DNA of 64,000 bases, taken from contig NZ_RBKS01000001.1 in the NCBI RefSeq assembly GCF_003634555.1, positions 3,596,001 through 3,660,000 on the forward strand, written 5' to 3'. Both the position numbers and the translations under genes were made by a program. The stretch comes from Frondihabitans australicus (GTDB lineage: Bacteria > Actinomycetota > Actinomycetes > Actinomycetales > Microbacteriaceae). The notes under the pieces are model-generated. The model had not been told where the DNA came from, ran no database searches, and was given only the letters and a program-made list of their open reading frames with translations. Shown piece by piece: positions 4,502 to 32,711 of the stretch (the stretch's first letter is position 1; the number at the start of each line of letters is the position of its first letter).

Positions 4502-7338
4502 GATGCCTGGCCGTCGAAGAGGGACCGGAGCGCACGCCGGGAATTGACGCCCCATTTGGCGTACATGTGCCGGACGTGGCTGGTGACAGTGTGCGGGGAG
4601 ATGAACAGGTCGGCGGCGATCTGTTGGGTGGTCAGGCCGGCGGCGACTCGCGCGAGAACTTCCAGTTCCCGATTGGTGAGGTCGGTCGACGGTGGCGCCG
4701 CCGCGTCCCGGGGGAACACACCGATGCTCCGGAGCCGCATTTTTACGCGATTGGATTCGCGCGATGCTCCGCTGGATTCGAACAGCGCGAGAGCTTCCTG
4801 CCACGCCGATTCGGCATTGCTGGCGTCGTCGCCGGCCCGGAGAATGCCGATGTCCTCGAGGGCGGACGCGAGGATCAGGGGACGTGCGATGCGCCGGTAG
4901 TACTCCGCGGCGGCGGCGACGGCTTCCGCGTCGTCCTCACGAAGACCATGGAGGTGCAGCACGATCCCCCGGCACAGGTCGTTGGTGGGGTTGAGTTCGG
5001 CGCGCCGGTCGGCTTCGCTGATGATTCGGGCCAGGCGGTCCGGCCGGCCAGCTGCGAGCATCATCCGCGCGAATGTGACGTCGTCGAAGAAGTCGGCGGG
5101 TGACGTCATGGACGGGACGGGTTGTTCGAGGGTGTCGTAGGCCTCCTGCGTCAGTGCCGTTGCTGCCGCCCAGTCGCCGTCTTGCTCTGCCTCCAACGCG
5201 AGAAGCCACTTCCCGATCCGTCGTAGCGGCTGAGACGCGGCCATGGACACGGCGAACCTCCGGTATCTGTCGAGGGCGGGCCGGTCGGCTTGCAGTAGCG
5301 CCACCCGGAACAGGACGAGGCCGATGGTCGATTGTGAGATGAAACCGTTTTCGAGGTCGTCCGCGAGCTCCAGGGCCGCTTCAGCCAGAGTCTTCGCTTC
5401 GTCAAGGCGCCCTTGGTCGAGGAGGACTCGGGAGCGGAACATCGTCCAGAACGACGTCGCGACTATGTCGTGCAACGCCTCTGTTTCCGCGATGCCGTCC
5501 TGGGTGATGCGGTCGGCGCGTGCGGTGTCGCCGGTGCTGTTCGCCAGGCATGCCGGCCACAGCCCTTCGGGCAGCATCCTGGACGGAGGTAGCGATCCTG
5601 CGTTCGACACACGCTTCATCGCTGACGTGATGAGGGTGAGGGCGTCATCGAAGGCGTTCTCGTTGAAGGCAGCCATGGAGTCGCCCGTTTCGATGAACGC
5701 CAGCGTCATCGCATCGCCGGCGACGTCCGCCTCTGTTCGGGCCGCTCGAAGCGTGGCTCGCATGTCGTCGTGGAGCCCTTGGTTGGCCAGGCTCATAGCT
5801 TTCGAGGCGAGGAGCCTGGCTCGGAGGGTGGAAGGGATTCCGGGAAGGGCGAGTCCCGCATTTGCGGCGTCCATGGCCTCTTGGATGGTGGTTTCGGCTT
5901 GGATGCGAGAGACAGCGAGCCTGAACTCTCCTTCTTGCTCGGGGGTGAGCCTTCCCTCGAGGCGTGCGAGGAGTTCACGGGCTTCGGAATGAAGCCCCCC
6001 GGACCACAGCAACGGCAGGAACCGGGCAGTGAGCGCCGCATGGCAGGGGAGGGCGTCGACCAGCTGGATGGCTCGGAGCGCGAATTGTGCCGCCTGCGAT
6101 GCGTCGGCGGTTGTGAGGGCGTCGGCGGCGTCGCTGAGGATGTTGGAGGCGATACGGTCTCCTCGCTTCGCTGATGCGGCCACTCGTGTGGCTATGGAGA
6201 GGAGGGGGTCGCCTTCTTTGAGGAGGATGGACGCCGCTTCCCGGATGAGGAGGTCGCGGAGCGATGGGGGGATGGACTGCTCCACTGTCTCGCGGACGAT
6301 GTCGTGTCGGAAGGCGGCGCGGTGGTGTCCGTCGTCGATGAAGACGCCTGCGTCGGTCGCGTCTTTTGCGGCGGCTAGCAATTCGTTCTGAGGCATTTGG
6401 GTGAGCTGTCCGAGGCTGGACAGGGTGAAGCGGCGCCCGAGCACGGAGGCTGCCTGGATGACGTTCTGGGTTGCCGCCGGCAGCCGTCGAAGCCGGCTCA
6501 TGGTGGAGATGCCGAAGCTTTGGGGAATGGCGCCCGTCTCCATCGTCGCGACGCCGTCCTGGGTTGTGACCAGGTGCTCGTCCTCGAGTCCCTGGACGAA
6601 TTCCTTGACGAGTAGGGGCACGTTGCCGGTGCGTTCGACGGCCTCGAGGACGGCGGCGTCGGGGGTCGCGTGGAGGAGGTCTGACACCATCGCCTCAACC
6701 GCCCTGGTGTCGAGCGGTTCGAGGTTCAGCACGTCTCCGCTGGCCCGATGGGCGTCAACGGTGGCTTCGACGTCGGCGGACTGTTGATCGGCTCGGACGG
6801 CGAGTAACCACAAAATGGGCATGTCTGAAAGTCGGTTGGACAGGGTCCGGAGGATGTTGAGGGATCCTGGGTCGCACCATTGCAGGTCGTCGACGATGAA
6901 TGCGACACCGCTGTCGAGAGCTAGTTGCTCTACAGTTTCCTGCACCTGTTGCGCGATCCAGTATCGCGAGGCCGGGTCGGTCGTGTGCGGGTCCAGGGCG
7001 AGGCGGGTGCCGCTGCGTGAGGCTTCGTTGATGGCGTCCAGTAGCGGCGCGAGGGGCATCAGAAAGGATTCGGGGTCGGGTCGGCAGAAGATGATGTTCA
7101 GCCCGCGTTCTCGGGCGGTGTGGGCGGCGTCCTGGAGGGCTCGTGTTTTGCCGACTCCGGGGATGCCTCTGATGATCAGGGTCTGGGATGTCCCGCTGTA
7201 TAACGCGTCGATAGTCGCCGTGATGCGGGCCGTCTCGGCGGCCCGTCCGCGGGTGGGAAACCCGTCGCTGTTCGAGAGCCCCTGAACGGCGCTCGAAGAA
7301 GTGGTCTGTCGTGGTGTGCCGAACTCCCTCACCGCCAT
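4498..7338 (-). CDS. LAL-type LuxR transcriptional regulator (copy 2)
   Basis: A 946-residue ATP-dependent LuxR-family regulator. Walker A is GIPGVGKT (about 58-65), Walker B is AFIVDDLQWCD (about 146-156), and the middle is helical and TPR-like. The C-terminal LuxR DNA-binding domain shows NRELEVLARVAAG and LFISPHTVTSHVRHMYAKWG. It shares domain order and many motifs with the gene downstream, with which it overlaps by four bases, so the two are probably co-transcribed and translationally coupled. It is divergent from the MFS exporter gene across a 286-base gap that probably holds both promoters. Its ligand cannot be told from sequence. Confidence 0.9.
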   Translation of the reverse strand: MAVREFGTPRQTTSSSAVQGLSNSDGFPTRGRAAETARITATIDALYSGTSQTLIIRGIPGVGKTRALQDAAHTARERGLNIIFCRPDPESFLMPLAPLLDAINEASRSGTRLALDPHTTDPASRYWIAQQVQETVEQLALDSGVAFIVDDLQWCDPGSLNILRTLSNRLSDMPILWLLAVRADQQSADVEATVDAHRASGDVLNLEPLDTRAVEAMVSDLLHATPDAAVLEAVERTGNVPLLVKEFVQGLEDEHLVTTQDGVATMETGAIPQSFGISTMSRLRRLPAATQNVIQAASVLGRRFTLSSLGQLTQMPQNELLAAAKDATDAGVFIDDGHHRAAFRHDIVRETVEQSIPPSLRDLLIREAASILLKEGDPLLSIATRVAASAKRGDRIASNILSDAADALTTADASQAAQFALRAIQLVDALPCHAALTARFLPLLWSGGLHSEARELLARLEGRLTPEQEGEFRLAVSRIQAETTIQEAMDAANAGLALPGIPSTLRARLLASKAMSLANQGLHDDMRATLRAARTEADVAGDAMTLAFIETGDSMAAFNENAFDDALTLITSAMKRVSNAGSLPPSRMLPEGLWPACLANSTGDTARADRITQDGIAETEALHDIVATSFWTMFRSRVLLDQGRLDEAKTLAEAALELADDLENGFISQSTIGLVLFRVALLQADRPALDRYRRFAVSMAASQPLRRIGKWLLALEAEQDGDWAAATALTQEAYDTLEQPVPSMTSPADFFDDVTFARMMLAAGRPDRLARIISEADRRAELNPTNDLCRGIVLHLHGLREDDAEAVAAAAEYYRRIARPLILASALEDIGILRAGDDASNAESAWQEALALFESSGASRESNRVKMRLRSIGVFPRDAAAPPSTDLTNRELEVLARVAAGLTTQQIAADLFISPHTVTSHVRHMYAKWGVNSRRALRSLFDGQAS

Positions 7339-7624
7339 CTCCTGTCCTTGGGGCGTATTCGGAGTCTATGAATGGGCCGAGTGAGCGCGCGTGTCCCTCC
7401 TGATACCCCATACGCCGAGGTGGCCTTGTAATCGTTGGGTCCGGCCGTGGAAATCGGACATGTGGCACGGGTATCTGGTCATAGTCGGTCGTTCGGCGGA
7501 CACGCGCTCGCGCATCGGATGAAGGGTGACCCTGCGAGGGGCAGGATTCTGGAGTGATCATTACCCGACATGGTTGAGCCGTTTGACGCTTGGGTCGGAG
7601 GAGCCTGGGCGACAGAGTCGCAGC

Positions 7625-8845
7625 ATGACAACTTCTACGACGAACAGGTCGGTCATCCGGGCGGTTCCCGCCGCGTGGCACGGCATCGGTTTCTGGATTA
7701 TCGCTGTCGTGTTCACGACGGTCATGGCGTATTCGACTGTCCCCACGCCTCTTTATGTGCTTTACGAGGCGCGTGACGGCTTCCCCTCGTTCGCTGTGAC
7801 ATTCATCTTTGCCGCCTATGCGGTCGGCGTGGTCGCGAGCCTCTATTTCGCTGGTCACATCAGCGATTGGGTGGGTCGGCGTCGCATCATTCTCATCTCC
7901 GTCGCCGTGGAGATTCTCGCGTCCTGCCTGTTCATCGCTTGGCCTGACTTACCGGGGCTGCTCGTGGCCCGGTTCGTCAACGGCGTCGGCGTCGGCATGT
8001 TGACGGCGACTGCAACAGCCCATCTGAGCGAGCTCAGGGTCATCTCGCGCTCCGACGGATCAGCGGACGCCTCCACCGTGTCCGGCGTCGCCAACCTTGG
8101 CGGTCTCGGCTTGGGACCGCTCATCGGCGGCCTGTTCGCCGAGTTCCTGCCCCAGCCGTTGCTCGTGCCGCACGTGGTCTTCCTCGCGTTGTTCGTCGTC
8201 GCTGTAATCGGTGTGGCGCTGGTCCCGGAGACGGTTGTGAAAGAGGAGATCCGGCCGGCGTACCGGCCACAGAAGGTGTCCGTTCCGCGAGAATCCCGGG
8301 CGGTGTTTTTCGCCGCTGGCGCGGCCGCTTTTTCCTCGTTTGCTGTGTTCGGCCTGTTCACGTCCCTCGCTCCGACGTTCCTCGTCGTGACGCTCCACGA
8401 AACCGACCGCCTCGTCGCAGGGGCGGTGTCGTTTTCGGTGTTCGCCGCGGCGTGCCTCGGGCAAGTGCTCCTGTCGAAGGCTCGGATCCGCACACAACTG
8501 AATGTGCTTCTTGCCCTCCTCCCCGTGGGCCTGGTGGGTCTCGCCGTCGGCGCGGCCGCCGCGTCACTCCCCGTGTTCGCTGCGTCGGGCGTCGTGGCTG
8601 GCGCCGGAGTGGGCCTGCTGTTCCGTGCGGCGCTGTCGACGGGAGCGTCGCTCGCGGGCGCCGAATCCAAGGGTGAAGTTCTGGCGGCGTTGTTCCTCAT
8701 TGCCTACGCCGGGTTGTGCATCCCCGTGCTGCTTGTCGGCGGTGCACTCGTCATCGCATCGCCGCTTGCCGTCCTGCTGGTCTTCGTTGTGCTCGTGCTG
8801 ACAGCCGTGCTCGTCTCGGCGATCAACATGCGGCGGCGTCACTGA
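7625..8845 (+). CDS. MFS transporter (drug/metabolite exporter type)
   Basis: A 406-residue integral membrane protein with about twelve hydrophobic segments. The MFS signature in the loop between helices 2 and 3 reads GHISDWVGRRRIILIS, and the N-terminal region has TPLYVLYE. This pattern fits the DHA1-like proton-driven exporters, although the substrate is not predictable. The start is the ATG of MTTSTTNRS; an upstream in-frame GTG would add 33 residues lacking any family character. The ribosome binding site is poor. The gene sits between divergent and convergent LAL regulators, which suggests local control by one of them. Confidence 0.85.
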   Translation: MTTSTTNRSVIRAVPAAWHGIGFWIIAVVFTTVMAYSTVPTPLYVLYEARDGFPSFAVTFIFAAYAVGVVASLYFAGHISDWVGRRRIILISVAVEILASCLFIAWPDLPGLLVARFVNGVGVGMLTATATAHLSELRVISRSDGSADASTVSGVANLGGLGLGPLIGGLFAEFLPQPLLVPHVVFLALFVVAVIGVALVPETVVKEEIRPAYRPQKVSVPRESRAVFFAAGAAAFSSFAVFGLFTSLAPTFLVVTLHETDRLVAGAVSFSVFAAACLGQVLLSKARIRTQLNVLLALLPVGLVGLAVGAAAASLPVFAASGVVAGAGVGLLFRAALSTGASLAGAESKGEVLAALFLIAYAGLCIPVLLVGGALVIASPLAVLLVFVVLVLTAVLVSAINMRRRH

Positions 8846-22856: not shown

Positions 22857-23231
22857 TCAAAGGTGAGCGCCGACTGCGAGGCCTGCGGAAGCCCCGATCA
22901 AGCACGTCACGAGCACGCCCCACACGGTCGCCGCTGCGAGAAACCAGCGGCCCTGCCGGGCCAGGGACAACGCTTCAACGCTTGCGGTGCTGAACGTGGT
23001 GTAGCCGCCGAGCGCGCCCGTTCCCAGCACCATGACCCACTGCGCCGATCCGGGAGCCGCGAACGGGAACGTCGTCACGACACCAAGAAGAAAGGAACCT
23101 GTGGCATTGATCACCGCCGTCGGCCACGGCCACACGTGAGGGCTCTTCGAAGCCCACCTGCCGACGGCGTACCGGACCAAGGCGCCACCGCCTCCAGCCG
23201 CGCAGGTCAAGATGAAAACCGTCACGTTCAC
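22857..23231 (-). CDS. crcB: Fluoride exporter FluC/CrcB, second subunit
   Basis: A 124-residue four-helix membrane protein of the Fluc family. Motifs are GGGGALVRYAVGRW in helix 1, the conserved NATGSFLLGVV in helix 2, and GALGGYTTFSTASVE in helix 3, which carries the Phe and polar residues lining the fluoride pore. The GTG start overlaps the preceding fluC gene by four bases. Such paired genes encode two subunits of opposite membrane topology that form a heterodimeric fluoride channel. Confidence 0.92.
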   Translation of the reverse strand: MNVTVFILTCAAGGGGALVRYAVGRWASKSPHVWPWPTAVINATGSFLLGVVTTFPFAAPGSAQWVMVLGTGALGGYTTFSTASVEALSLARQGRWFLAAATVWGVLVTCLIGASAGLAVGAHL

Positions 23232-23659
23232 GAAGCGACCCCCTCGGGAACAGACGCCGGCTCCGGTGCGGGCTTGATGCGCGGCGAGAACAGACGATGC
23301 CCGGCCCACGCGGCCAGAACACCCGCCGAAACCAAAGCGAACGACACGGCGATCGCGAGCACGAAAGCGCCACGGCTGAACAGGATCGTTCCGGCCAGCG
23401 CCATCGTGCTGTACGACGTGAACCCGCCCAGGACGCCGACTCCGATGCCGACGTTCAACACGTCCTTCATCCCCCGGCCGACGCCGGCCCGTGACGCAAC
23501 AGCCGACACCGCACCCAGGACGAACGCGCCGACGACATTGATCGCGACCAAGCCGACCGGGAAACCATCTCGTCCTGGCGCAAGCATCTCGCCAGCCGCA
23601 CGAGCCCCGGTACCGACAAAGCCGCCGACCACCACGAGAAACACCCTGAATACCGTCAT
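23228..23659 (-). CDS. crcB: Fluoride exporter FluC/CrcB, first subunit
   Basis: A four-helix Fluc-family protein of about 143 residues. The conserved blocks are GGFVGTGARAAGEML, NVVGAFVLGAV and GVLGGFTSYSTMALAG. It pairs with the downstream subunit to form a fluoride channel. The start is uncertain: the ATG used here gives a normal N-terminus, a TTG at 23680 has GGAGG four bases upstream, and a GTG lies at 23701. I looked for a fluoride riboswitch in front of it and could not match the consensus. Confidence 0.88.
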   Translation of the reverse strand: MTVFRVFLVVVGGFVGTGARAAGEMLAPGRDGFPVGLVAINVVGAFVLGAVSAVASRAGVGRGMKDVLNVGIGVGVLGGFTSYSTMALAGTILFSRGAFVLAIAVSFALVSAGVLAAWAGHRLFSPRIKPAPEPASVPEGVAS

Positions 23660-23696
23660 GGCCACACTGTCGCGGATCAATTGACCTCCGAGAACA

Positions 23697-23709
23697 GTCA
23701 CTTGACCTC
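23697..23709 (-). promoter_or_regulatory. GAGTCA-type motif, site 5 (one extra base)
   Basis: Minus-strand reading GAGGTCAAGTGAC contains the GTCAAGTGAC core with an extra G after GAG. It is about 40 bases upstream of the first fluC ATG used here, and it would overlap the alternative GTG start. Confidence 0.3.
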
Positions 23710-23710
23710 A

Positions 23711-23735
23711 CCTGTCGGCCGGGCTCCCGGACAGG
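23711..23735. other. Inverted repeat in the fluC/PrsW divergent gap
   Basis: Arms CCTGTC and GACAGG pair around an inner CGGG/CCCG. It lies about 50 bases upstream of the first fluC subunit and 90 before the PrsW-like gene. It could be an operator or leader hairpin. It does not resemble the fluoride riboswitch pseudoknot. Confidence 0.35.
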
Positions 23736-24955: not shown

Positions 24956-25467
24956 GCGGCCGCGGGCAGGCCGCGAACGCATCCCGCTCAGGGCGGATGC
25001 CTCGCCTTCACAGCGCCCGCATCGTCCACGCGAAGAACTGGCACCAACGCGCCCAAGAACGGTTGAAACCAGGCGACCGCGCCGCTGACGTTCTCCGCAA
25101 CGCCATGGGCAGTTGACCGTTCGTCGGAGCGTTCATCCTCTTCATGCTGGTATGGGCCGGCGCGAACAGTGTCCGTGGAGCATGGGACCCCTACCCATTC
25201 ATCCTCTTGAACCTGCTCCTCAGCATGCTCGCCGGGCTGCAAGGCGCCATCCTGCTCATCTCCGCCCGCAGGCAAGACGCCATCGCCGCCACCCTCGCGC
25301 AAAGCGACTATGAAACAAACGAAGCGGCAAAAACCGACATCGAACGGCTCCTCGACATGAATCAGCAGCAGCTCCAACTCATCGAGACCCTCTGCGCCGC
25401 CCTCAACGCCACCCAGACCACCAGCCCCTCCGACGAGGCGGCGACGCCGAACCCGTCGGACCTTTGA
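24952..25467 (+). pseudogene. DUF1003 membrane protein interrupted by in-frame TGA
   Basis: A single reading frame encodes a DUF1003 protein of about 171 codons, but the codon at 25114-25116 is TGA. The family has a Trp at this place (MGSW at the start of the first helix); here the sequence reads MGS, stop, PFVGAFILFMLVWAG. After the stop the family motif WDPYPFILLNLLLSMLAGLQ and the C-terminal acidic coiled region continue unbroken. So one base change (TGG to TGA) explains the interruption. Either the gene is a recent pseudogene or the base is a sequencing error; regular readthrough is less likely. The N-terminal fragment is 54 aa. The downstream SDR gene begins ten bases later. Confidence 0.8.
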
Positions 25468-25476
25468 AAGGCAACC

Positions 25477-26271
25477 ATGCTCATCGACCTCTCCGGTAAA
25501 TCTGCGCTCGTCACCGGGTCAACCCAGGGCATCGGGGCCGCCATCGCCCTGGGTCTGGCCAGGGCAGGAGCGGAAGTGGGTATCAACGGCCGCACCGCTG
25601 AACGAGTGGACGAATCCATCGCCTGGCTGCAAGCGAAAGCACCGTTGGCGCGTTTCGTCCCGGTACCCGGGAACATGGCCGACCAGCAGCAGGCCACTGC
25701 GGTCGCCGAGTTGCTTCCCGACTTCGACATCCTCATCAACAACCTCGGCATCTTCGGATCCGCCGACCCGCTCTCCATCGACGACGCCGAGTGGAAACGC
25801 TACTTCGACACCAACGTCCTCTCCGCCGTCCGACTCACACGCCTGTACCTCCCGGCGATGATGACCAAAGGCTGGGGGCGCATCCTCAACATCGCCAGCG
25901 ACTCCGCCGTCGTCACCCCCGCCGAGATGATCCACTACGGCATGAGCAAGACCGCCCTACTCGCGGTCAGCCGCGGCTTCGCGAAGGCAGCCGCCGGCAC
26001 CGGCGTCACAGTCAACTCCGTCCTCGCCGGCCCGACGCACACAGACGGCGTCGAGGACTTCGTCTACGAACTCGTCCCCCGGTCGTTGAGCTGGGAGGAA
26101 GCGGAGCGGCAGTTCATGCTCAAGTACCGGCCGCAAAGCCTGCTGCAGCGGCTCATCGAACCGGAAGAGATCGCCAACATGGTGGTCTACCTAGCATCCC
26201 CAGTCGCTTCCGCGACCACCGGCGCCGCCGTCCGCGTCGACGGCGGTTACATCGATTCCATCGTCCCGTGA
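25477..26271 (+). CDS. Short-chain dehydrogenase/reductase
   Basis: A 264-residue classical SDR. The dinucleotide site TGSTQGIGAAIA is at about 14-25, NNLG at the structural motif, Ser in NIASDSAVV and the catalytic pair in YGMSKTALL (Tyr and Lys). A C-terminal VRVDGGYIDSIV matches the family. It resembles 3-oxoacyl-ACP reductase-like oxidoreductases; the substrate is unknown. AAAGG precedes the ATG. The stop overlaps the next small gene by four bases, so it is the first gene of an operon running on to the AlaRS-like and MprF-like genes. Confidence 0.9.
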   Translation: MLIDLSGKSALVTGSTQGIGAAIALGLARAGAEVGINGRTAERVDESIAWLQAKAPLARFVPVPGNMADQQQATAVAELLPDFDILINNLGIFGSADPLSIDDAEWKRYFDTNVLSAVRLTRLYLPAMMTKGWGRILNIASDSAVVTPAEMIHYGMSKTALLAVSRGFAKAAAGTGVTVNSVLAGPTHTDGVEDFVYELVPRSLSWEEAERQFMLKYRPQSLLQRLIEPEEIANMVVYLASPVASATTGAAVRVDGGYIDSIVP

Positions 26272-26549
26272 CCGACCCCACCGCGCAGCCGTTCCTGCCC
26301 GACGAGCACGGGCTCCGACGGGACCGGCAGCTCCGGCTCTACAACGCAAACACACTCACGGGCGACCGAGAGCGGCAAATCCGGGCAGCGTGTCGCGGAG
26401 CGGACCCCTACGGGACGGTTCTTCCCGCCTGGATGACGGAAGCGCTGCTGCACGAGATCGACCGGCTCCGAACCCAGCTCGACACTGTTCTCCGCCAGAG
26501 CGGGAGCGATGCCCCACCCGAAAGCGAGAGCACTCATGAACGTGGATGA
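26268..26549 (+). CDS. Small hypothetical protein, 93 aa
   Basis: A 93-residue charged protein starting VTDPTAQPFL with a GTG that overlaps the SDR stop (GTGA), and ending inside the first codons of the AlaRS-like gene. It has predicted helices (TEALLHEIDRLRTQLDTVL, coiled-coil-like) and no membrane segment. I recognise no family. Because it is tightly placed between the SDR and AlaRS-like genes, it may be a partner of the lipid aminoacylation pair. Confidence 0.65.
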   Translation: MTDPTAQPFLPDEHGLRRDRQLRLYNANTLTGDRERQIRAACRGADPYGTVLPAWMTEALLHEIDRLRTQLDTVLRQSGSDAPPESESTHERG

Positions 26550-27957
26550 CATCCGCCGCGCCTACCTGCAGTTCATGCTCGAGCGCGGTCACGTACGTAT
26601 CCGACCCGCGAGCCTTGTTCCGGACGACACCACGACATTGTTCACCAGTAGTGGCATGCAGAGCCTGCTGTCGTTCTTACTGGGACGTCCTCACCCCGAC
26701 GGAACTCGCCTGACCGACGTGCAACCGTGCCTGCGAGCTCAGGACATCGACGACGTCGGCGACAACCGGCACACCACATTCTTCGAGATGCTCGGGAATT
26801 GGAGCCTCGGCGCCTACTTCAAAGAGCAGCAGATCCGGCAGTTCTTCAACTTCCTGACCGACATCATCGGGCTCGACCCTGCCCGGCTGTATGTCACCTG
26901 CTTCCAAGGCGACAAAGAGCAGGGCATCGCCCGCGATGACGAAGCCGCCAGCATCTGGCAGAAGGTGTTCGAGGAAGCGGGCGTCGAAGCACGCATCGCA
27001 GTCATCGGCAGCCAGCAGGACGGGGACCGGCGAGGCATTCTTCCTGGGGAACGGATCTTCTTCTACGACGCCGACCAGAACTGGTGGAGCCGCGGAGGGT
27101 CCCTCCCCGGCACACCCTCCGGCGACCCGTGCGGCCCGGACAGCGAGGTGTTCTTCGACTTCGGCCCGCAACACCACGACGGCCGTTTCGGGCTAGCGCA
27201 CCCAGCAAGCGACGGAGGCCGCTTCCTCGAAATCGGCAACCAAGTGTTCATGCAGTACCGACGCGAAGCCGACGGGTCGTTCGTCCCTCTCGAACGCCGC
27301 GACGTCGACTTCGGCGCCGGACTGGAACGCATCGCCGCGGCCGTCCGGGACGATCCCGACATCTACCGCATCGATGTCCTCGCGCCTCTCATCCGCACCG
27401 TCGAAGCCATCGCCAGCACCTCCTACGACAGCGACCCGACCACGATGCGCATCATCGTCGACCACGTGCGGGGCGCCGTGTTCCTTGCCGCGGATGGAGT
27501 AGTCCCCTCCAACAAGCAGCAGGGCTACGTGATGAGGAGGCTTCTCCGCCGCGCCATCGCAGCGGCCCGCCGTCTCGACGTCACCGACCATTTCTTCAGC
27601 CGTCTTACCGACGAAGTCATCCGCAACTACGCCGACACCTATCCTCAGCTCGCCGCCCGTCGAGAGTCCATCACCCACCTTCTCGACATGGAGGAGAAAG
27701 CCTTCCGCCACACGTTGGATTCCGGATACCGGGAATTGCAAAGGCACACAGGGACGACGCTGTCCGGGCAGGACATTTTCCACCTGTCCGACACATTCGG
27801 GTTCCCCCGCGACGTGACCTTGGAAGAAGCGCGGCGGCTCGGAAGCGCCATCGATGCCGAATGGGACTCCGACTTCGCCAACGCCCTCGAGGCCCAACGA
27901 CGCCAGTCACGGCAGCATTCACCACTCGGCGCCGGCAGCACCCCCGACACCAAGTGA
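26536..27957 (+). CDS. Truncated alanyl-tRNA synthetase homologue (catalytic part only)
   Basis: A 473-residue class II synthetase related to the N-terminal half of AlaRS. Motif 1 region reads TTTLFTSSGMQSLLSFLLG; motif 2 region DNRHTTFFEMLGNWSLG; motif 3 VDFGAGLERIA. The helical tRNA-recognition part follows (DHVRGAVFLAADGVVPSN, YVMRRLLRRAI), and the protein stops just after TFGFPRDVTLEEA. The editing domain and the C-Ala domain are absent; a normal AlaRS is about twice as long. The comparable fragment of E. coli AlaRS is known to be active in charging. It overlaps the 93-aa gene upstream by 14 bases and is followed seven bases later by the MprF-like gene. I infer that it supplies Ala-tRNA for that enzyme. 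Confidence 0.9.
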   Translation: MNVDDIRRAYLQFMLERGHVRIRPASLVPDDTTTLFTSSGMQSLLSFLLGRPHPDGTRLTDVQPCLRAQDIDDVGDNRHTTFFEMLGNWSLGAYFKEQQIRQFFNFLTDIIGLDPARLYVTCFQGDKEQGIARDDEAASIWQKVFEEAGVEARIAVIGSQQDGDRRGILPGERIFFYDADQNWWSRGGSLPGTPSGDPCGPDSEVFFDFGPQHHDGRFGLAHPASDGGRFLEIGNQVFMQYRREADGSFVPLERRDVDFGAGLERIAAAVRDDPDIYRIDVLAPLIRTVEAIASTSYDSDPTTMRIIVDHVRGAVFLAADGVVPSNKQQGYVMRRLLRRAIAAARRLDVTDHFFSRLTDEVIRNYADTYPQLAARRESITHLLDMEEKAFRHTLDSGYRELQRHTGTTLSGQDIFHLSDTFGFPRDVTLEEARRLGSAIDAEWDSDFANALEAQRRQSRQHSPLGAGSTPDTK

Positions 27958-27964
27958 ATCGCCG

Positions 27965-30631
27965 ATGGCCAGCGCAGTAGCCGCCGTGCTGTATGTCGTC
28001 ATCGTGTTCGTCGGCGTCGCGGCCGAGAACCTCGGGCTGCCGCTCCCGGGACAGTCGCTTCTCGTCACCGCGCTGGCAGTGAGGCATCACACGGACACGT
28101 CCGGATGGCTCATCGCCGGGACGGCCGCCGCCGGAGGCGTCGTCGGAGACACAGCCGGATACGTCACCGGACGCAAGTTCGGAGACAGGATCATCGCCGA
28201 GGCATCGCAACGATTCCCGCGACTCATTCCTGCGTCAGGCGTGAAGCGTGCCCGCACGGTCGTGAACCGGTACGGCACGGCTGGTGTCGCCATTGGACGC
28301 TGGTTCCCCGTGCTGAGGATCTTCGTCGCCCCGACGGCCGGTGCGTTGCGCCTACCGTACCGAGCATTCCTCCCCGCGAGCATCGTCGGATCGGCCGTGT
28401 GGACGGCCGTCGTGTTCGGCGCGGTGACCATCGCGGGTCGAACCGCCCGAGAAGGCATACACGGGGCGACGTGGATCGCGCTCGGTGTCGCCGTCGCCGT
28501 CGCCGTCTCGGCGACGGTCGCCCGGTTCCGTTCCCCGCACGTGCAGGATCTCCAGACGCCGACAGCCGCCGGCGACCCGGTGCCTTGGCGTCGGGTCGGG
28601 GCTGTCGTGGCCAGACGGGCCTGGAGCGCCTGCACCGAGTACCCGTTCACCGTGGCTTTCACGGTGGGGTTCGTGACCATCGGTGTTGTCACCGGCGCAC
28701 TGTGGCACGCCATCGACTCGCGACCGGATTTCGTGAGCCTTGCGTACGGGGCGCCGAACTTCGCGGAAGGGCGCTGGTGGACGTTGGTCACGGGCTCTCT
28801 CGTCGCCGCCGAACCGTTGCACTATTCGCTGTTCCTACTGATCTGTCCTGCCGCGTTATGGGCGTATGAGCGACGCGCGGGAACAGGAAAGGCGGTGATC
28901 GTTTTCACCGCTGGTCAGCTCGGGGCGGTGCTCATCACGGCGGCGCTGCTGACGGCGCTAGCCGGCACCGGGTGGGTTTGGCCCCGCGCAGTTGCCGGCG
29001 ATCTGGACGTTGGACCGTCGGCGGGTTACCTCGCCGTCCTTGTCGGAGTCTTCTGGCGTGCTCCGCAGCCCTGGCGTCTGCGCGGCCTCACCGCGGTCGG
29101 CGCCATCGTGACCGTGTTCCTGCTGTTCAGCGGGACGGTCGCCGACGTCGAGCATTTCGTTGCCGTCGCCGGCGCGTTCGTGTTCCTGAAGAGACCAGGT
29201 CTGGCGGTTGGCTCTCTTCACGAACGTCGGCTGTTCGCATTCGCCGGAGCGCTGATGCTCGCCGCCGTGCCGTTGCTGACAGCCATCGGCCCAGAAGTCG
29301 GTCCGTTCGAGGTGTCTTTCGACGGGCTCGGCACGTGGATCTTCGTCGGTGTCGACATCGCCGTCGCCGGTCTGCTGACTTTTCCCCTTCACCGAGGACA
29401 ACGAGCAGCGTGGCGGATCATGGTGCCGCTCGGGGTGTGCAATGTCGCCGTCGGGGTCAGTTCTCTCGCCTTCACGAGTGACGAAGCGATTGCGACGATC
29501 ATTCGGCTGCCGACCGCCTACGCGGGATTGTGGTTGGTGGCCACCGTACTGCTGGTCTTCTCTCGGGACGCGTTCGCTGTCACTCGGCGGAAAGTTGGTC
29601 GAGAAGTCGCCGTCGGTCGCGACGACGCAGTGCGAGCACTTCAGCAATGGGGCGGCGAGTCACTGTCTTGGATGATCACGTGGCCGCACATGGAGTATCT
29701 CCGCGTCCGTGAATCCATCATCGGGTTTCAACGCCACAGGCCCGTGGCGCTGATCTTGGGGGACCCTATCGGCCCGGTCGCCGGCGCAGAGTCGGTGATG
29801 GAAGACATTGATCGGCAGGCCCGGCGTCTGGGCCTCACGCCGTGCTTCTTCGCCGCGAGTGAGGCGACACGGCACAGCGCTCCGCAGGGATGGGCGTCGC
29901 TTCGTATCGCAGAGGATGAGGTCGTCGACCTGGACGATGTCGCCTTCACGGGAAAGAAATGGCAGCCGATTCGCAGCGCCGTCAACAGGGCTGGACGGGA
30001 ACGTGTGACCCTTCGCATGGTGACCCTTGAAGACGAGCCGGTCGACGTTCTCGAGCAGGTTCGGTCCATCTCCGATGGGTGGGTCGGCGATAAGGAGCTG
30101 CCGGAGATGGCGTTCACTCTCGGCGGCGTCGCGCAAGCCCTTGACCGGCACGTTCAGGTGGCGTTGGCTGTCGATGCCGCGGAGATCGTGCAGGCTGTCC
30201 TCAGCTGGCTGCCCGTCTACGGGGAGGGCGGTTCCATCCGCGGATGGACGCTGGATGTCATGCGACGCCGTGACGGAGCCATGCCCGGGGTGATGGAGTT
30301 TCTCATCGCGGCTTCTGCACGGTTCTTTCACGATTCCGGAGCGGAGTTCGTGTCCTTATCGGCCGCGCCGCTGGCGCCCGGCGGTGCCGACGTCGAGAAG
30401 CCTGAGCGGACGGTCCTCGACCTGTTGGCGAGGGTCTTGCAACCGGTGTATGCGACCGGCTCCCTGGAGTCGTTCAAACGAAAGTTCAACCCGGTTGGTG
30501 CGCCGCTGTTCCTCGTCTACCGCGACGCGGCGGATCTTCCCGGAATCGCTGTCGCTTTGACCCGCGCGTATTTGCCGGGCGTGACAGCTCTGCAGCTGAG
30601 CCGGGCAGGTATCGCGGCGATACGACGATGA
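27965..30631 (+). CDS. DedA / MprF-type phospholipid aminoacyltransferase fusion
   Basis: An 888-residue multi-domain membrane protein. Residues about 1-200 are DedA-like (ENLGLPLPGQSLLVTAL, DTAGYVTGRKFGDRI, RWFPVLRIFVAPTAGALR). About 225-400 is a rhomboid-like block (GRWWTLVTGSLV). More helices follow, and the last 330 residues or so form the DUF2156 dual-GNAT domain of MprF/LysX enzymes (SLSWMITWPHMEYL, GFQRHRPVALILGDPIGP, PGVMEFLIAASARFF, SLESFKRKFNP). MprF enzymes move an amino acid from aminoacyl-tRNA to phosphatidylglycerol at the membrane and flip the product, lowering negative charge and raising resistance to cationic peptides and acid. The neighbouring AlaRS-like gene points to alanine as the amino acid. 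The ribosome binding site is weak; coupling to the upstream gene is likely. Confidence 0.88.
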   Translation: MASAVAAVLYVVIVFVGVAAENLGLPLPGQSLLVTALAVRHHTDTSGWLIAGTAAAGGVVGDTAGYVTGRKFGDRIIAEASQRFPRLIPASGVKRARTVVNRYGTAGVAIGRWFPVLRIFVAPTAGALRLPYRAFLPASIVGSAVWTAVVFGAVTIAGRTAREGIHGATWIALGVAVAVAVSATVARFRSPHVQDLQTPTAAGDPVPWRRVGAVVARRAWSACTEYPFTVAFTVGFVTIGVVTGALWHAIDSRPDFVSLAYGAPNFAEGRWWTLVTGSLVAAEPLHYSLFLLICPAALWAYERRAGTGKAVIVFTAGQLGAVLITAALLTALAGTGWVWPRAVAGDLDVGPSAGYLAVLVGVFWRAPQPWRLRGLTAVGAIVTVFLLFSGTVADVEHFVAVAGAFVFLKRPGLAVGSLHERRLFAFAGALMLAAVPLLTAIGPEVGPFEVSFDGLGTWIFVGVDIAVAGLLTFPLHRGQRAAWRIMVPLGVCNVAVGVSSLAFTSDEAIATIIRLPTAYAGLWLVATVLLVFSRDAFAVTRRKVGREVAVGRDDAVRALQQWGGESLSWMITWPHMEYLRVRESIIGFQRHRPVALILGDPIGPVAGAESVMEDIDRQARRLGLTPCFFAASEATRHSAPQGWASLRIAEDEVVDLDDVAFTGKKWQPIRSAVNRAGRERVTLRMVTLEDEPVDVLEQVRSISDGWVGDKELPEMAFTLGGVAQALDRHVQVALAVDAAEIVQAVLSWLPVYGEGGSIRGWTLDVMRRRDGAMPGVMEFLIAASARFFHDSGAEFVSLSAAPLAPGGADVEKPERTVLDLLARVLQPVYATGSLESFKRKFNPVGAPLFLVYRDAADLPGIAVALTRAYLPGVTALQLSRAGIAAIRR

Positions 30632-31716: not shown

Positions 31717-32232
31717 TCAGCTGACGGGGTGATCTTCCCGCACGGGGAGGCGCCAGTTCGGTCGAACGTAATGGCAGGTGTACCCGAACGGGTTCTTGAT
31801 GAGGTAGTCCTGGTGCTCTTCCTCCGCTTCCCAGAACGGGCCGGCGGCGGTGACCTCCGTGACGACCTCGCCAGGCCACAGGCCGGACGCTTCCACGTCC
31901 GCGATCGTGTCGATGGCGATTCGGCGCTGTTCGTCGTTCGTGTAGAACACGGCCGAACGGTAGCTGCGGCCGATGTCGTTGCCCTGCCTGTCGAGGGTGG
32001 TGGGGTCGTGGATCTGGAAGAAGAATTCGAGGATTTCGCGGTACGTGATGACCTCTGGGTCGAACGTCACCTCGACGGCTTCGGCGTGGTCGCCGTGGTT
32101 GCGGTAGGTGGCGTTGGGGACGTCTCCGCCCGTGTATCCGACGCGGGTGGAGATGATTCCGGGGCGGCGGCGAAGGAGGTCCTGCGCTCCCCAGAAGCAT
32201 CCGCCGGCGAGGATCGCGATTTCGGTGGTCAT
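31717..32232 (-). CDS. msrA: Peptide-methionine (S)-S-oxide reductase MsrA
   Basis: A 171-residue MsrA. The catalytic Cys is in AGGCFWGAQ (Cys12), with the family blocks [27 protein letters not shown] and [18 protein letters not shown]. The enzyme reduces the S form of methionine sulfoxide in proteins. The ATG overlaps the stop of msrB by four bases, and CTCC-type pairing upstream gives a usable Shine-Dalgarno (GGAG). The two enzymes together repair both sulfoxide stereoisomers in an oxidative stress operon. Confidence 0.95.
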
Positions 32233-32711
32233 TTGCTTGTCTCCTTCGCGGTGGCGCGGAATGCGTCGTCGAAGAGGGCGAGGTACTCGCCGTAGCCCTG
32301 TGCTGCCATGTCGGCGAACGGGATGAAGCGCAACGCGGCCGAGTTGATGCAGTACCGGAGGCCGCCTTCGGACGTGGGGCCATCGTCGAAGAGGTGGCCG
32401 AGGTGGCTGTCGCCGTGGGCGGATCGGACTTCGGTGCGTCGCATGCCGAAGCTGTTGTCTTCTTTCAGCACGATGTTCTCCGGGTCCACCGGCTTGGTGA
32501 AACTCGGCCACCCGCAGGCGCTGTCGAACTTCCTGGTGGACACGAACAGCGGCTCGCCGGAGACGATGTCGACGTAGATGCCCGCCTCGTCGTTGTCCCA
32601 GAATTCGTTGGCGAAAGCCGGCTCGGTGGCTGCTTCCTGCGTGACCTGATACTGGCGGGTGGTGAGTTTGGAGATCGCGTCGGGCGATTTCGAGTACTTC
32701 GTGGACATCAT
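32229..32711 (-). CDS. msrB: Peptide-methionine (R)-S-oxide reductase MsrB
   Basis: A 160-residue MsrB. The catalytic Cys is in [12 protein letters not shown], and the likely resolving Cys is in [11 protein letters not shown]. The structural CxxC zinc pairs of many MsrB proteins are missing: [13 protein letters not shown] stands where a Cys pair is often found, so this is a non-zinc form. AAGGGAA precedes the first of two adjacent ATGs. It is translated together with msrA. Confidence 0.95.

Follow-up and report, generated by a model that had tools for sequence, protein, structure and literature searches.

Dedicated paralogues of class II aminoacyl-tRNA synthetases that serve an MprF-fold transferase are already in print, with LysX, VlmL/VlmA and the fungal fusions of aspartyl-tRNA synthetase (AspRS) as examples (here and below, papers are cited for individual passages). 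LysX of Mycobacterium and Corynebacterium is a lysyl-tRNA synthetase (LysRS) paralogue fused to MprF (PMC10580965, PMC2922099). VlmL/VlmA of Streptomyces viridifaciens combine a seryl-tRNA synthetase (SerRS) paralogue with an MprF-like enzyme (PMC2922099). AlaDAGS, an MprF homologue of Corynebacterium glutamicum and C. pseudotuberculosis, makes alanyl-diacylglycerol and alanyl-phosphatidylglycerol, and a pesT alaDAGS double deletion leaves C. glutamicum with no MprF homologue of its own (PMC10580965). Here we describe a short alanyl-tRNA synthetase (AlaRS) gene directly upstream of an MprF-type gene in Frondihabitans australicus (contig NZ_RBKS01000001.1, positions 3,596,001 to 3,660,000; this whole stretch of 64,000 nucleotides is called the window). 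The two genes form a candidate system for lipid alanylation.

The window pair shares features with each of these systems. As in LysX, a dedicated synthetase paralogue would, as we propose, feed a DUF2156/LPG_synthase_C lipid enzyme. Unlike in LysX, the synthetase is an AlaRS instead of a LysRS, the genes are separate, and the window MprF holds no LysRS domain. With VlmL/VlmA the pair shares a separate, dedicated class II synthetase alongside an MprF-fold transferase, whereas that system uses serine for an antibiotic precursor and the window pair is proposed to use alanine for a lipid. ErdS of fungi likewise joins a class II synthetase to a DUF2156 lipid transferase, but it is a eukaryotic AspRS-DUF2156 fusion that transfers aspartate to ergosterol (PMC9437257). 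The window enzyme is, like AlaDAGS by its description, an actinobacterial MprF homologue; unlike the window pair, AlaDAGS has no dedicated AlaRS named beside it under the term "AlaRS" in the passages cited (PMC10580965). In Table 1 of a review, AlaRS paralogues appear only as carrier-protein ligases (PMC9437257, for that table). Among literature titles and the beginnings of abstracts, a coverage outside which most subscription papers fall, we saw no AlaRS paralogue paired with MprF.

The two genes and the parts of the second are as follows:
26536..27957, + strand: short AlaRS core, 473 amino acids, with no tRNA_SAD editing domain and no DHHA1/C-Ala (Pfam, NCBIfam, fold match)
27965..30631, + strand: MprF-type protein, 888 amino acids, with DedA/VTT, a rhomboid-like membrane region and LPG_synthase_C (Pfam)
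28046..28423, + strand: VTT (DedA) domain, residues 28-153 of the window MprF (Pfam)
28865..29167, + strand: rhomboid-like stretch, residues 301-401 of the window MprF (below the Pfam cut-off)
29636..30520, + strand: LPG_synthase_C domain, residues 558-852 of the window MprF (Pfam)

A first-pass annotation, made from the sequence alone, had described the upstream gene as a truncated AlaRS that keeps its charging core and lacks the editing and C-Ala domains, and this description holds. In a Pfam scan of the window proteins at E 0.001, the short AlaRS matched PF01411 (372 bits, cut-off 30.3; profile positions 1-432 of 552) and no other family, the editing domain PF07973 tRNA_SAD being absent. 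Because its C-terminal half is missing, the protein stays below the NCBIfam equivalog cut-offs (TIGR00344, 371.7 of 457 bits; NF002436, 398.3 of 529 bits). An alternative in-frame ATG at 26509 would extend it to 482 amino acids. The predicted structure is confident (mean predicted local distance difference test score, pLDDT, 92.4) and matches AlaRS catalytic fragments, with template modelling (TM) scores of 0.82/0.92 for 9jdn and 0.82/0.88 for E. coli 3hxu. Residues 4-462 align with the E. coli catalytic fragment, and within them residues 300-462 form a conserved, confidently folded helical part that is expected to read the tRNA acceptor.

The catalytic core is conserved in detail. In a set of 67 Patescibacteria-type AlaRS, 84 alignment columns reach a conservation of 95% or more, and the short AlaRS keeps 80 of them; the set comprises 62 rows assigned to Patescibacteria and five from metagenome-assembled genomes that bear other names. 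The four departures are P43S, D93A, N256D and E426D. At residue 93, where the window copy has Ala, Asp is found in 99% of the 67 Patescibacteria-type rows, 100% of 13 canonical rows and 93% of 29 short rows. The loop that bears Lys73 in E. coli AlaRS is missing; the genome's main AlaRS and all 17 rows printed lack it too, so its absence is no lesion. The positions aligned with Asn303 and Asp400 of E. coli AlaRS, the readers of the G3:U70 pair, are Asn and Asp in the short enzyme. Given the 80 conserved columns, charging of tRNA-Ala by the short AlaRS is plausible.

The origin of this gene, which the first-pass annotation had missed, lies outside Actinobacteria. One scan of genome contigs gave 589 confirmed matches. 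Among the best 80, the relatives are mostly Saccharibacteria, the closest outside Actinobacteria at 48-60% identity, and other Patescibacteria (40-57%), with scattered actinobacterial relatives in Subtercola, Brachybacterium, Brevibacterium, Williamsia, Rhodococcus and Pseudonocardia. Actinobacterial short forms have 463-494 amino acids, whereas the Saccharibacteria AlaRS have 624-660 (frame-broken L038 aside). The tRNA_SAD domain is present in all three longer AlaRS scanned (L005 and L010, Saccharibacteria rows, and L028, a related row) and absent in the short AlaRS of the window, L021 and L026. At the Saccharibacteria AlaRS loci, covering up to 6 kb on each side, there was no match at E 1e-3 to the parts of the window MprF.

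In the AlaRS tree, the short actinobacterial forms nest within the Saccharibacteria clade at two places (Shimodaira-Hasegawa-like approximate likelihood ratio test, 100; 100/100 in a second tree), and a tree with four more rows recovered this again. The first of these trees was built without the broken or partial rows L038, L054, L065, L075 and L078 and took 12 canonical rows from the 28 phylum-sample loci L134-L161; in the second tree, the Saccharibacteria group includes L006, L009 and L028, which are not labelled as such. A single origin of the short forms was rejected by the approximately unbiased (AU) test (p 7e-05; p 6e-04 when the window row, whose end branch is as long as 1.2, was removed), which indicates at least two acquisitions by Actinobacteria. 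L129, identical to L004, was omitted from the second tree and from both AU tests. Most simply, the trees are explained by two transfers into Actinobacteria in which the editing part was lost each time; the direction depends on a root placed among other Patescibacteria. Saccharibacteria in culture grow on actinobacterial hosts (PMC9040727), which would give opportunity for transfer.

Two other sources were considered and rejected. The genome (4.04 Mb, one contig) holds a second, full-length AlaRS with core, tRNA_SAD and DHHA1. It is 40-41% identical to the short AlaRS and falls in a different clade, so the short gene is not a trimmed copy of it. Plasmid carriage was rejected as well: among 15 of the 63 plasmid rows, the best matches are 37-39% identical and called alaS where annotated, and all 63 are below 60%.

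The short AlaRS is patchily distributed. It is present in one of seven genomes of the genus and in 37 of 398 genomes of the family sample, from 11 of 85 genera. In the order sample (396 genomes), nine genomes matched at E 1e-100 or better, three of them outside the family. In the phylum sample (396 genomes), 48 genomes matched and the short type was found in two only (G000 and G146); the other 46 matches are 37-43% identical, and 43 of these lie in open reading frames (ORFs) of at least 777 amino acids.

The first-pass annotation also placed a DedA-fused, MprF-type membrane enzyme immediately downstream, and this is borne out. Seven bases separate the AlaRS stop (27957) from the MprF ATG (27965) on the same strand, and the protein matches PF09924 LPG_synthase_C (186 bits, cut-off 27.5) and PF09335 VTT (54.8 bits, cut-off 33.9). 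PF20401 Rhomboid_2 reaches 22.4 bits, under its cut-off of 27; in the relative L264, PF01694 Rhomboid is above its cut-off. The protein is far from the canonical bifunctional flippase/synthetase NF033480 (132.6 of 600 bits, C-terminal part only) and from NCBIfam LysX NF002821 (81.7 bits, cut-off 742). Solved relatives of its transferase domain are 4v36, 6lv0, 5vrv and 4v34. The structure model of the whole window MprF was useless (mean pLDDT 43.9, four sequences), and nothing was drawn from it.

We then placed the enzyme in a tree of 69 MprF transferase domains, comprising 59 of 60 fetched MprF loci (chosen places, in carriers and non-carriers of the short AlaRS) and ten that adjoin an AlaRS or lie close to one; L221, whose frame a stop interrupts, was omitted from the MprF trees. 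The nine MprFs in the tree that directly adjoin a short AlaRS, from three families, all fall within one clade of 22 rows (100/100), here called clade A. In a second MprF tree, a stem of 3.16 sets clade A well apart from the LysX-like rows. A clade A profile built without the window gave 716 bits for the window MprF and at most 418 bits for non-members; with a similar clade A profile, the other five adjacent family MprFs score 1027-1044 bits. All adjacent MprFs found, 11 in the family and three in two other families, belong to clade A. The window's genome has two further MprF genes of another clade (G000:C1:518301-521926 and 1089229-1092791), each with an esterase-like gene close upstream. In two genera without the short AlaRS, a clade A MprF lies directly downstream of a trpS-like ORF by eye (L253, L261).

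The pairing is not confined to this strain. MprF adjoins the short AlaRS in 11 of the 37 family carriers, from four genera, and outside the family in Williamsia and two Pseudonocardia. The genes of the latter three pairs are convergent, as are those of ten of the 11 family pairs (67-171 bases between matched stretches); the window alone has both on one strand. Stop-to-stop gaps are 14-286 bases in the eight convergent loci measured, and in G379 the MprF is 6 kb from the short AlaRS. Adjacency occurs in both separately acquired AlaRS lineages (Williamsia and Pseudonocardia in one; the window, G055, G326 and G342 in the other). Thus, of the architecture that the first-pass annotation considered new, the pairing recurs, and the same-strand, DedA-fused form is found in the window only.

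Presence of clade A was called at E <1e-200 with the clade alignment over the 398 family genomes, of which 54 were positive. These comprise 26 of the 37 carriers and 28 of the 361 non-carriers; by genus, clade A occurs in 9 of 11 carrier and 8 of 74 non-carrier genera (Fisher p 2.7e-06). All these counts ignore relatedness. Four weaker matches (G100, G124, G161 and G332) were excluded and would raise the non-carriers to 32; two of them, G100 and G161, reach 514-518 bits over the transferase half and could be members of clade A. PF09924 of any kind is present in all 37 carriers and in 22 of 56 non-carriers, the 56 being those with low handle numbers and not a random draw. Remnants of a decayed clade A gene immediately precede the AlaRS of G330 (L119, 6992-7205; up to 86% identity over 35 amino acids), and an intact clade A gene is found elsewhere in that genome. 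In G330 and G1042, the gene that directly follows the short AlaRS is esterase-like, of the PF00756 type, and Williamsia, two Rhodococcus and two Pseudonocardia have such a gene next to their MprF of clade A or its sister group. PF00756 was confirmed in the two MprF-side esterases scanned, whose N-terminal membrane part was seen by eye.

We consider it more probable than not that the short AlaRS and the clade A MprF form a module in which the AlaRS is a dedicated supplier of Ala-tRNA for lipid alanylation. The short AlaRS, from a Saccharibacteria-type donor and without an editing domain, would charge the cell's ordinary tRNA-Ala. The clade A MprF would then take alanine from Ala-tRNA to a glycerolipid, and passage of the product to the other face of the membrane may be aided by the fused DedA domain. 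Diacylglycerol and phosphatidylglycerol are both possible acceptors, because the Corynebacterium MprF homologue makes both alanyl lipids. The choice of phosphatidylglycerol by the first-pass annotation is a guess, as Actinobacteria use diacylglycerol as well (PMC10580965). A private supply would keep the lipid demand off the main AlaRS. It has been proposed that MprF owes its specificity to recognition of the aminoacyl group, and the way in which it draws aminoacyl-tRNA away from EF-Tu has been termed an open question (PMC9976931). If the module works as proposed, a private synthetase is a testable answer to the competition between MprF and translation for aminoacyl-tRNA, and the pair would be to alanine what LysX is to lysine, with the two functions on separate genes. 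It would also be a case of a translation enzyme from a Patescibacteria-type donor turned to membrane chemistry. Clade A is a testable MprF subfamily for alanyl lipids.

A wider scenario is possible, if somewhat doubtful. Here Actinobacteria would have captured a Saccharibacteria AlaRS at least twice, shed its proofreading and tied it to clade A, and in some cases to a membrane esterase, as a private lipid-alanylation line. The foreign, editing-less core might also load glycine or serine and so give mixed aminoacyl lipids, products that the main AlaRS would proofread away, and the change in surface could affect epibiont attachment.

Several results weigh against lipid alanylation. Among solved structures, the transferase domain matches the lysyl enzyme 4v36 best (E 5e-20) and the alanyl enzyme 4v34 less well (E 1.5e-10), so sequence leaves the amino acid unfixed. 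DedA fusion, noted by the first-pass annotation, is not specific to the pair: DedA-fused clade A MprFs also occur without an adjacent AlaRS (L256, L258, L262, L263 and L264). Eleven of the 37 family carriers (all ten of genus g11, plus G031) have no clade A MprF, and 28 genomes have clade A without the short AlaRS, so the clade A enzyme works without it. G1161, outside the family, has no MprF match within the 17 kb fetched. The carriers Brachybacterium massiliense and Brevibacterium S111 (both multi-contig) have no PF09924 match at E 0.01. By eye, nrdF-like and metal-transporter-like ORFs lie beside the short AlaRS in Brachybacterium, Brevibacterium S111, G834 and G935 (the transporter-like ORF of G834 has only 162 amino acids, and G935 is nearly identical to S111). 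Two Rhodococcus have a cobG-like ORF and no MprF nine bases after the short AlaRS, again by eye; in the second MprF tree, their non-LysX MprF branches as sister of a group made up of clade A and two Pseudonocardia rows. The two trees also disagree: the G379 MprF groups with G326, G342 and G055, and the G379 AlaRS with G330 and G146. Finally, both window genes have long end branches (1.12 for the MprF, compared with 0.36 and 0.33 for the genome's two other MprFs), which may reflect joint evolution or relaxed constraint, and the latter could count against the proposal. Because carriers without clade A and other gene contexts exist, the short AlaRS may serve more than one purpose, with lipid alanylation confined to the lineages that have clade A. 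The alanyl-lipid system of the first-pass annotation therefore stands as far as the core is kept and tied to one MprF subfamily by adjacency and co-occurrence, and is weakened by the two carriers without the MprF domain.

These contexts would suit a general spare or stress AlaRS, for example a zinc-independent one for translation under metal or other stress, with the MprF neighbour incidental. The AlaRS editing domain is zinc-binding, and the metal-related and cobG-like neighbours and the two carriers without PF09924 point the same way. We still find this explanation unlikely, given that the gene recurs next to one and the same MprF subfamily in both AlaRS lineages, given the co-occurrence, and given the risk of mistranslation by an editing-less enzyme. 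That the short AlaRS no longer charges tRNA, and instead produces alanyl-adenylate or transfers alanine to a protein or small molecule, would fit the lost editing and C-Ala domains, the long branch of the window copy and its Ala at the near-invariant Asp93. The acceptor-reading helical part is nevertheless conserved and confidently folded, and E. coli AlaRS fragments of similar length charge tRNA; this makes a non-charging enzyme very improbable. Only marginally less improbable is a resistant AlaRS that shields the cell against an inhibitor of the main enzyme, like other duplicated synthetases such as SerRS2 (albomycin) and IleRS2 (mupirocin) (PMC9437257). The scattered occurrence and horizontal acquisition of the gene are in line with a resistance paralogue, but no biosynthetic cluster was noticed by eye in the ORF lists of the loci viewed, and the MprF and esterase association would go unexplained. 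We give least credence to chance, by which two mobile genes came to adjoin in the window by accident. The window differs from the other pairs in gene order, and its upstream genes have no conserved counterparts in 32 carrier loci, yet the same MprF subfamily is adjacent in four family genera and two further families, and the genus-level co-occurrence argues against accident.

Upstream of the pair, the window holds three further genes on the same strand:
25144..25467, + strand: DUF1003 protein, 107 amino acids, nine bases before the next gene (Pfam)
25477..26271, + strand: short-chain dehydrogenase/reductase (SDR), 264 amino acids, probably in the same transcription unit as the AlaRS (Pfam)
26268..26549, + strand: ORF of 93 amino acids with a GTG start, whose start overlaps the SDR stop and whose end overlaps the AlaRS start by 14 bases

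Because the spacing is tight (nine bases, then overlaps), the five genes may form one transcription unit with the AlaRS-MprF pair at its end. The 93-residue ORF has no match in Pfam or NCBIfam and may or may not belong to the AlaRS-MprF system. Searches of the 32 carrier loci found no conserved upstream neighbours: PrsW, DUF1003 and the 93-residue ORF had no match there at E 1e-5, and the SDR had one, 24% identical and more than 7 kb from the AlaRS (L127), with three further matches (26-30%) in 24 MprF loci. A dedicated tRNA-Ala beside the short AlaRS was rejected, as no tRNA gene lies anywhere in the window. In 27 carrier loci tRNA-Ala is absent and only tRNA-Gly (three) and tRNA-Arg (one) were found; the genome has 46 tRNAs (count only).

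Other loci and the rest of the window gave further observations by eye. In L011, L016, L298 and L299, the short AlaRS stands with a block of nrdF-like and metal-transporter-like ORFs (in L298 only a transporter ORF of 162 amino acids), some with transposase-like ORFs, and the block is possibly a mobile metal-stress island. In L024 and L026 (Rhodococcus), at about 5900-8580, a divergent cobN-like ORF precedes the short AlaRS. On the - strand of the window, two adjacent small membrane proteins at 22857-23711 resemble a CrcB fluoride-channel pair, and MsrA-like and MsrB-like ORFs lie side by side at 31717-32711.

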